Source: Pyrofollis japonicus (lineage in GTDB: Archaea; Thermoproteota; Thermoprotei_A; Sulfolobales; Pyrodictiaceae). Taken from it: a stretch of DNA of 64,000 bases. Location of the stretch: positions 124,001 to 188,000 of the forward strand of contig NZ_AP028634.1 in the NCBI RefSeq assembly GCF_033097485.1, read 5' to 3'. The notes under the pieces are model-generated. The model was not told the origin of the DNA. It did no database searches and worked only from the letters and a program-made list of their open reading frames with translations. Positions within the stretch are counted from its first letter, which is position 1. The number at the start of each line of letters is the position of its first letter. Made by a program: the position numbers and the translations under genes. Shown one piece after another: positions 18,462 through 19,899 of this stretch.

Positions 18462-19019
18462 GTGCCGACAGCCACTGCCCGCCAGCACCTCTGCAGCGGC
18501 CTCGAGACAGAAGCCATCATAGCGGGCAGGCTCATCAAGGTCCCCAAGCACAGCAACATAATAGAGGCTTACGGCGCCATAGAGGAAGCCGAAGCACTCA
18601 TAGCGCGGGCAAGGCTGAGCCTCTCCAACCGCGGCGAAAAAGACCTCGCCAAGAGGCTTGAAAAAATCCAGAAAGCCATCCGCCTACTACCCGCATTCCT
18701 CGCGGGAAGCATAGACGCAGGCACAATACTCCTCCTCGTAGAAGAAGCGTCCCAAGGCCTCCAAGAGCCCAGGGGATGGAGTCTAACAGGCTGCACCCCC
18801 GAAGACCCAGACATAGTGCTTGCATCCACAAAGCTTCGCGCAGCAGAGAGAAGCATAGCGAGAGCAACGTCAGAGGAATCAATAGTCCCAATCGAGCTTG
18901 CCCAAGCCTTCTCCGACCTCGTAACCAGGATGACATATACCCTCTACAAGATACACTGGAGCCTATGCCCCGAGGAGACAAAGGCAAGCTCCATCCACGA
19001 GTTCCTAGAGAAGAGCTAA
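18462..19019 (+). CDS. PduO-type cobalamin adenosyltransferase-like protein, N-terminal motif missing
   Basis: A 185-residue, mostly helical protein. Residues about 25-60 (KVPKHSNIIEAYGAIEEAEALIA) match the PduO-family helix, and a LRAAERSIARA helix matches the conserved RRAER segment. The N-terminal TxTGDxGxT nucleotide loop of active ATP:cob(I)alamin adenosyltransferases is not present in the 24 residues before this, which read instead TARQHLCSGLETEAIIAGR. Catalysis may therefore be lost or altered. The start at GTG 18462 follows GGAGGCGG. It is convergent with the membrane protein at 19261. Confidence 0.6.
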   Translation: MPTATARQHLCSGLETEAIIAGRLIKVPKHSNIIEAYGAIEEAEALIARARLSLSNRGEKDLAKRLEKIQKAIRLLPAFLAGSIDAGTILLLVEEASQGLQEPRGWSLTGCTPEDPDIVLASTKLRAAERSIARATSEESIVPIELAQAFSDLVTRMTYTLYKIHWSLCPEETKASSIHEFLEKS

Positions 19020-19094
19020 GGAGCCCAAACCATTCCATCCTCCACGGCTTCTCCGGGATCAGTCCCTCTGCAAGCGTATTTCGTAGCCAAGGAT

Positions 19095-19250
19095 CCGGCC
19101 GGTTTTCAACAACCCATGAGCAGTATGGGCTAGGCTCAAACTAAGCGAAGAATAGGGGCCTCGGCTCACGGCCGTGCCCGGTGGCACCTCACCACTGGGC
19201 TTCGGCCTGACGTGCAGACGTCACCGGCCCATAGGTATACGGTTACCTGT
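19095..19250. ncRNA. Hairpin-dense convergent intergenic region, possible structured RNA
   Basis: Several inverted repeats follow one another: CCCAT/ATGGG (19113-19117, 19125-19129); GCCCGGTGG/CCACTGGGC (19176-19184, 19192-19200, nine pairs including one G-U, 7-base loop); TGACGT/ACGTCA (19208-19213, 19218-19223) extended by GGCC/GGCC outside a 2-base bulge; and AGGTA/TACCT (19233-19237, 19244-19248). It lies between the ends of two convergent genes, so either strand could be transcribed. It does not match tRNA, 5S, SRP or RNase P signatures that I know. Confidence 0.35.
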
Positions 19251-19260
19251 CAACCTGGGG

Positions 19261-19899
19261 TTATTCCTTCTTCGCCTCCCGGCTCTCTGCAGCCATGCTC
19301 CTTTGGCCAAAGAAGTACCATGCTGTGAACACGGCTATTGATAAGCCTAGCCCTAGGCTAAGCCCCCATGCAAGCGCCTCTTTTACTACAGGGCTTAGCG
19401 CCGTTACATCAACTATCAGTATTAGCGATATATCGAATATAACTAGTGCCATGAATCCTTTCAGCCCCTTCTCCATGCGCAGCTTCTCCGTTACATAGTT
19501 CACGGCCACGTACGTCAACAATATCATTACGAAGACGCTTGCTATGCGAGCTGATATGATTATTGTCTGTGCGGCGATGTCGCCGTACTCGGGGAACCCC
19601 GCCACTATGGAGACGTAGATTGTTATGAGTACCAGGGCAAAGACAAGCAGGCCGTTAATGAGCGACGATAGCGTGAATGGTACGCCGTAGCGCGTGAACA
19701 ATGGGTCGAGAAGCTCGTCTATCTTTGAGGCGCGCAGCAGCCGGGCAACGAGGCGAACTATTAGAACTGATAGGAGAGCCATGACGGCGCCTGCTAGTAC
19801 TGAGGCCGCGAGCTTGGGCACGATGCTTGTAACGTCTCTAAGGGCTAGCCTTATAGCCTCCTCGACGCTAAGAGGCGCATCCTGCACCATTGCGACCAC
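19261..19899 (-). CDS. Small integral membrane protein resembling the TM helices of MscS-like channels
   Basis: A 212-residue protein with an amphipathic N-terminus and four or five transmembrane helices. The order of a long first helix, KIDELLDPLFTRYGVPFTLSSLI, and then paired helices resembles the conserved TM-helix module found in small-conductance mechanosensitive channel relatives. It lacks the soluble MscS beta domain. It could conduct ions or only resemble the module. The MFS gene ends its transcript immediately upstream of this gene (13 bases), so the two are probably co-transcribed. Confidence 0.55.
   Translation of the reverse strand: MVAMVQDAPLSVEEAIRLALRDVTSIVPKLAASVLAGAVMALLSVLIVRLVARLLRASKIDELLDPLFTRYGVPFTLSSLINGLLVFALVLITIYVSIVAGFPEYGDIAAQTIIISARIASVFVMILLTYVAVNYVTEKLRMEKGLKGFMALVIFDISLILIVDVTALSPVVKEALAWGLSLGLGLSIAVFTAWYFFGQRSMAAESREAKKE

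Follow-up and report, generated by a model that had tools for sequence, protein, structure and literature searches.

The run of hairpins at 19095-19250 of the window (the whole 64,000-nucleotide stretch of Pyrofollis japonicus DNA that was analysed) is very probably explained by a gene for a box C/D guide sRNA, encoded on the minus strand at about 19232-19154. The hairpins are real, yet they are a by-product of this gene. An initial annotation had taken them as a possible new structured RNA; a conserved structured RNA is indeed present, but it lies on the minus strand and belongs to a class that is already known. The gene adds a member to this RNA kind that falls outside Rfam coverage, and the middle of its P. 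japonicus copy is unusually rebuilt.

Anatomy of the probable sRNA

A covariance model (R2), which was built from sequences that include the P. japonicus copy itself, matches 19234-19153 with 75.2 bits and nothing else in the window at E up to 10. Read on the minus strand, the region can be divided into the following elements:

19154-19232, minus: box C/D sRNA gene, ends approximate, placed from the R2 match and the block at about 19154-19233 that is conserved in relatives
19226-19230, minus: 5' strand of the terminal stem, GGGCC, pairing with 19156-19160
19218-19224, minus: box C, GUGACGU, with two departures from the consensus RUGAUGA; UGANG is invariant in 13 members
19206-19217, minus: D' guide, CUGCACGUCAGG, with a core, UGCACGUCA, that is invariant in 13 members
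19202-19205, minus: box D', CCGA, placed from the alignment of 13 members and by segmentation
19194-19201, minus: D'-C' loop (k-loop), AGCCCAGU, from hand segmentation verified against the DNA
19186-19192, minus: candidate box C', GUGAGGU, from hand segmentation
19177-19185, minus: 9 additional nt, GCCACCGGG, separating box C' from the D guide, from hand segmentation
19165-19176, minus: D guide, CACGGCCGUGAG, with a core, ACGGCCGUGAG, that is invariant in 13 members
19161-19164, minus: box D, CCGA; C-Y-G-A in 13 of 13 members
19156-19160, minus: 3' strand of the terminal stem, GGCCC, pairing with 19226-19230
19176-19200, minus: alternative hairpin GCCC-A-GUGG / CCAC-C-GGGC, the nine-pair repeat of the initial annotation, which would compete with the C'/D' fold

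The box beside the 5' strand of the terminal stem, GUGACGU in P. japonicus, reads RUGAUGA in three relatives (G007, G012 and G022); box D is CCGA or CUGA in all 13 members, and the stem that closes on box C covaries. The internal boxes are clear in the compact relatives G007, G012, G022 and G032, in which terminal stem, C, D' guide, D', C', D guide and D follow one another with the boxes RUGAUGA or RUGAUGU (C), CYGA (D'), RUGAUGU or RUGAGGA (C') and CUGA (D), a D' guide of 12 nt and a C'-D spacer of 13 nt. The G007 copy, for example, runs from box C GUGAUGA through the D' guide, CCGA, C' GUGAUGU and the D guide to CUGA. The corresponding parts of the P. japonicus copy are D' CCGA and the candidate C' GUGAGGU, the latter followed by a spacer of 21 nt; the candidate resembles C' boxes in other sRNAs of the family, and a mechanical placement rule leaves it unplaced because the spacer is long.

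The GGGCC/GGCCC stem together with boxes C and D would form a kink-turn, the predicted site of L7Ae, on which Nop5 and fibrillarin would then assemble. Genes for the latter two are present and adjoin each other in the P. japonicus genome: fibrillarin at G000:C1:1471405-1472082 (E 8.6e-107) and Nop5 at G000:C1:1470527-1471204 (E 8.6e-77). An RNA from the plus strand would fold slightly better; the minus strand is preferred because the boxes, the direction of the kink-turn and the complementarity to rRNA all fit it. An H/ACA RNA was also considered and set aside, as inspection by eye gave no pocket-plus-ACA layout, and ARAGORN found no tRNA. A comparison with Rfam, which the initial annotation had proposed as a check, returned nothing for the gap: none of 4227 models matched the window at gathering score, and none matched 19000-19320 at E up to 5.

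Hairpins and folding stability

Both of the inverted repeats that had been singled out exist on the plus strand. The nine-pair repeat joins 19176-19184 to 19192-19200 and includes one G.U pair (19180.19196), which on the minus strand becomes an A.C mismatch; the six-plus-four repeat consists of TGACGT (19208-19213) with ACGTCA (19218-19223) and of GGCC at 19204-19207 with 19226-19229. The region is also GC-rich as described, with 61% in 19095-19250 against 55% in the window. It does not, as was claimed, end exactly at the stop of the neighbouring gene: its last letter is 19250 and its last named arm reaches 19229, both short of the end of the stop codon at 19261. The density of hairpins was considered unusual for ordinary spacer, and compared with dinucleotide shuffles the stability of 19095-19250 is indeed unusual on the plus strand (z -4.06, a value that none of 300 shuffles reached) and on the minus strand (z -2.73, reached by 4 of 300). 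It is not unique: of 205 windows of 156 nt sampled per strand with 30 shuffles each, including one that overlaps the element, two are as extreme as this on the plus strand and six on the minus strand.

The structure that is conserved differs from the hairpins named at the outset. UGACGU/ACGUCA pairs box C with the D' guide, is broken in part of the relatives and has no change on both sides at any of its six pairs in a 13-row alignment; the same alignment gives none for the four pairs of CGGC/GCCG. An RNAalifold consensus built of UGA/UCA and CGGC/GCCG hairpins was rejected, since these 13 rows show no two-sided change for any of its pairs. Covariance analysis of orthologues, which the initial annotation had recommended, thus supports a terminal stem, but none of the hairpins it had named.

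Conservation and covariation

A blastn search of 39 genomes with the gap (19020-19262) gave matches in eight of them, P. japonicus included, with the homologous block once per genome. All matches to other genomes start at or after 19154 and end at or before 19233, and at E up to 0.001 the stretch 19020-19153 matched no other genome. The block is 93% conserved in a congener, in which the remainder of the gap is unmatched. Read on the minus strand, they form a single RNA alignment in which UGCACGUCA and ACGGCCGUGAG are invariant, with GGCC stems framing them, and across 13 members the guides and boxes are the best-conserved parts of the sRNA.

A first covariance model (R1) gave matches in 11 of 20 family genomes, including P. 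japonicus and all six that are near-complete, and, at the level of the order, in 19 of 214 genomes; it found nothing in the other nine family genomes, among them three of four congeners (60-86% complete). R2 matched 26 of 229 genomes of the class. When these matches were read, apart from loci L101, L109 and L111, both guides were present in 15 of the 229 genomes, with one change in the D' guide of G214; the remaining inspected genomes share one guide or carry other C/D sRNAs. A scan of named genomes, from which records of P. japonicus or very near genomes were possibly left out, gave ten stretches with the both-guide pattern, nine of them in Pyrodictiaceae, Pyrolobus, Desulfurococcales or an unspecified Thermoproteota bin. 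The tenth (L032) is a bacterial coding region without boxes and was discarded as a chance match.

Four of the five pairs of the P. japonicus terminal stem entered the covariation count. Across 13 sequences, 83% of the cells of the stem are paired (reached by 0 of 500 shuffles) and its covariation is 0.299, a value that none of the 500 shuffles attains (they give 0.120) and that the stem slid by +1 column approaches at 0.282. A change on both sides occurs in four of six pairs, which 25 of 500 shuffles also reach. In the same 13 members, position 5 of box C and position 2 of box D form C.C (5), G-C (3), A-U (1) and U.U (4). A general covariation between these two positions was considered and rejected, as a wider set of 45 pattern matches also gives 10 G.U, 6 C.U and 1 A.C.

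These 45 matches come from a C/D-shaped pattern with GGCC stems, which hits 16 of 19 family genomes; three of the matches lie in the P. japonicus genome and seven represent the present RNA, and the reversed pattern, used as a control, gave none in the 19 genomes. C/D-shaped sequences with GGCC stems occur in P. japonicus outside the window at G000:C1:365874-365932 and 1525263-1525322 (minus). Within the window, a strict pattern found no other C/D sRNA; it also misses the present one, because of its spacer.

Predicted targets in 23S rRNA

Both guides are complementary to the 23S rRNA of P. japonicus (G000:C1:1436515-1439626, minus; numbered here from the start of the Rfam match), and target nucleotides were assigned by the N+5 rule. 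The D' guide forms 10 contiguous Watson-Crick pairs and one G.U pair with 914-924, where it would direct 2'-O-methylation of A918. The D guide forms 11 Watson-Crick pairs and one G.U pair with 718-729, which predicts C722, and 11 pairs with the near-identical 830-840, which could be used alternatively and predicts C833. The sequence UCACGGCCGUG occurs twice in this 23S rRNA, at 719-729 and 830-840, 111 nt apart; one D guide could therefore serve two sites.

Scored against the 16S and 23S rRNAs of P. japonicus, the D guide reaches 11.5. Of 3000 shuffles, 14 score as high; so do three of the 821 12-mers located before a CYGA in the window, one of the three being the D guide itself. The D' guide scores 10.5, which is reached by 82 of 3000 shuffles (about 3%) and by 30 of the 821 12-mers, the sRNA's guides among them. 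Taken alone, the complementarity of the D guide is strong and that of the D' guide modest; it is the two guides together, with their conservation, that carry the case for the predicted targets, which both fall in one 200-nt span of the 23S rRNA. From this complementarity A918 is, with good confidence, the predicted target of the D' guide, and C722 or C833 is the probable target of the D guide.

The core of the D' target, UGACGUGCAA, is found in all eight complete 23S rRNAs compared (P. japonicus, G007, G011, G014, G037, G144, G025 and G035). When each genome's own 23S locus was scored by a simple score that included 1500-nt flanks, A918 was the best D' site in P. japonicus, G011, G035 and G025, and the second in G014 and G144, where the better-scoring stretches sit in the flanks. 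It was not among the best two in G007, in which the D' guide mismatches at positions 1-2. The search for 23S rRNA itself returned nothing in 4 of 10 genomes and, in a further search, in 7 of 13, with fragments in several others; the 23S locus of G017 (L116) yielded no target sites. A C/D sRNA in G007 (G007:C1:526914-526973, L021) has a D guide, GCCACGGCCGUG, that overlaps the 23S site of the P. japonicus D guide in a shifted register, pointing to G724 in P. japonicus numbering.

Aligned to the 23S rRNA of Escherichia coli, A918 corresponds to about 745, C722 to about 592 and C833 to about 660, the alignment of loops being uncertain. The 23S stretch UCUGACGUGC matches the yeast letters, which would place A918 at the position of yeast A817; the distances to yeast G805 and A807 fit this equivalence, and A918 is apparently the same rRNA position as yeast Am817. 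The yeast snoRNA snR60 directs Am817 and Gm908 of 25S rRNA, and PMC8307265 and PMC9045821 give it as the guide for Am817; only the target would be common to snR60 and the D' guide, and no shared descent is claimed. By its predicted placement A918 lies in the helix-35 region, and helices 35 and 35a are described as hotspots of archaeal methylation in PMC4644070. A text search of the literature, supplements aside, with the letters of guides and targets gave 51 papers, of which the 15 listed had titles that seemed unconnected.

A remodelled C'/D' middle

The C'-D spacer measures 13 nt in 10 of the 13 members, 18 nt in G018 and 21 nt in P. japonicus and its congener G004. PMC8413462 gives 12 nt as the archaeal optimum; with 21 nt, methylation of C722 by the P. 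japonicus D guide may therefore be weak or lost. Of the internal layouts described in that source, the P. japonicus RNA reads as the archaeal k-loop, whereas five relatives (G011, G014, G005, G017 and G018) have a D'-C' linker of at least 9 nt that can form a GC hairpin, and thus a stem where an internal k-turn would have one. They depart from the k-turn C'/D' of PMC8413462 at position 4 of box C', where U or C replaces the A, which leaves them without the second sheared G.A pair; the C' boxes of stem-bearing copies read RUGUGG, RUGCGG or RUGCUG. With G004, which has U at this position and a 7-nt linker, U or C is found in 6 of 12 relatives. Position 2 of box D' can pair with position 5 of C', as A-U in G018, where D' is CAGA.

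Other C/D sRNAs (L066, L026, L025 and L027, in G018, G052, G084 and G082) likewise combine a long D'-C' linker, often with a GC hairpin, with RUGUGGA as their box C'. Long linker and altered C' position 4 occur together in the sRNAs of G018:C54, G052 and G084, and both are lacking in G007:1439576, a compact relative of the G018:C54 sRNA. Among 17 RNAs that were chosen and segmented by hand, and not blind, position 4 is U or C in 8 of 8 with a linker of at least 9 nt and A in 8 of 9 with a shorter one. A mechanical rule, which placed 31 of 37 distinct C/D-shaped sequences and left six unplaced (P. japonicus and G004 included), found the A missing in 13 of 15 long-linker and 2 of 16 short-linker sequences (Fisher p 5e-5), counts in which many orthologues are entered separately and are not independent.

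It is possible, though we hold it only tentatively, that Pyrodictiaceae and their relatives possess a subclass of C/D sRNAs in which a longer linker, often with a GC hairpin, replaces the k-loop and the A of box C' is changed to U or C. If true, the middle of these RNAs would either present L7Ae with a non-canonical internal site or act as an L7Ae-independent half-site, as PMC8413462 reports to have been argued for yeast C'/D' motifs.

Guide turnover, genomic context and predicted expression

In two further families, the D' guide is combined with other D guides. One of these is f7 (G035 and G133), where the different D guide fits 23S rRNA at P. japonicus G959, 41 nt from A918, and fits the 23S rRNA of G035 as well. 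The other, f3 (G139, G141, G143 and G144), retains the D' guide together with a D' box of ATGA or TTGA; for the D guide, the 23S rRNA of G144 offers no good partner, and guide-target covariation, looked for in that genome, was not found. This turnover is consistent with PMC4644070 and PMC7994747, in which the two guides of archaeal sRNAs are described as having separate histories.

The gap is flanked by a plus-strand gene ending at 19019 and a minus-strand gene with its stop at 19261. The former, a GTG-start ORF at 18462-19019, matches cobalamin adenosyltransferase (PF01923, Cob_adeno_trans, E 3.3e-11); the latter is weakly MscS-like, below the cut-off. Elsewhere the neighbours are a nitroreductase (G004), RNase HII (G018, G017), a CDP-alcohol transferase (G007, G012), GATase/CobT-like (g2), B3/4 (G022, G032) and AAA (G009) genes, a variation between genera that fits a free-standing sRNA gene. 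The G011 copy lies near a CobT-like gene (DBI_PRT).

The sRNA lies about 28 nt downstream of the stop of the 19261 gene and is convergent to the 18462 gene. This position agrees with the account in PMC7994747, according to which most archaeal C/D genes are without a promoter of their own, and the sRNA would probably be processed out of read-through from the 19261 gene. It is alike to the double-guide box C/D sRNAs of PMC4644070 (489 defined by RNA-Seq) in its boxes C, D' and D, its candidate C', its kink-turn stem and its guides with predicted 23S targets. It differs from the usual archaeal C/D sRNA of 50-70 nt, the range given in PMC7994747, in its length of about 79 nt and its 21-nt D spacer.

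Alternative explanations

The gene could be decaying in the genus, with a terminal kink-turn and D' guide that work and a D half that is dead. The 21-nt spacer shared with G004, against the cited optimum of 12 nt (PMC8413462), and a hairpin, GCCCAGUGG/CCACCGGGC, that would bury C' both point this way. We nevertheless regard decay as rather unlikely, since the core of the D guide and box D are identical in P. japonicus and G004 and the core is invariant across all 13 members.

Readings that dispense with a guide RNA fare considerably worse. The position just past the stop of the 19261 gene, facing the convergent 18462 gene, and the GC-rich hairpins would suit a cis-acting 3' structure, a terminator or a stabiliser of mRNA; such a role is very improbable, however, given that the neighbouring genes change between genera and that guides and boxes are conserved and hairpins are not. 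The adenosyltransferase-like gene and the DBI_PRT gene near the G011 copy could suggest a riboswitch or another k-turn RNA, perhaps linked to cobalamin. The cobalamin gene in P. japonicus is convergent to the RNA, however, and only one of 20 flanking ORFs scanned elsewhere (in G011) matches a cobalamin-type family, six of the 20 having no Pfam match; guides complementary to rRNA account for the invariant letters, Rfam offers no match, and this reading is likewise very improbable. That the hairpins arose by chance in GC-rich spacer scarcely deserves credence: although folding on the plus strand is as unusual in two of the 205 windows sampled, the block is highly conserved in a congener in which the rest of the gap is unmatched, and the covariance model matches across families. 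The box C/D sRNA thus remains the preferred identity.

Significance

For a family of extreme hyperthermophiles, the sRNA predicts two sites of 23S rRNA methylation, of which one is apparently methylated in yeast too. With its 21-nt spacer and rebuilt C'/D' middle, it would offer a natural test of how strict spacing and kink-turn requirements are in archaea.
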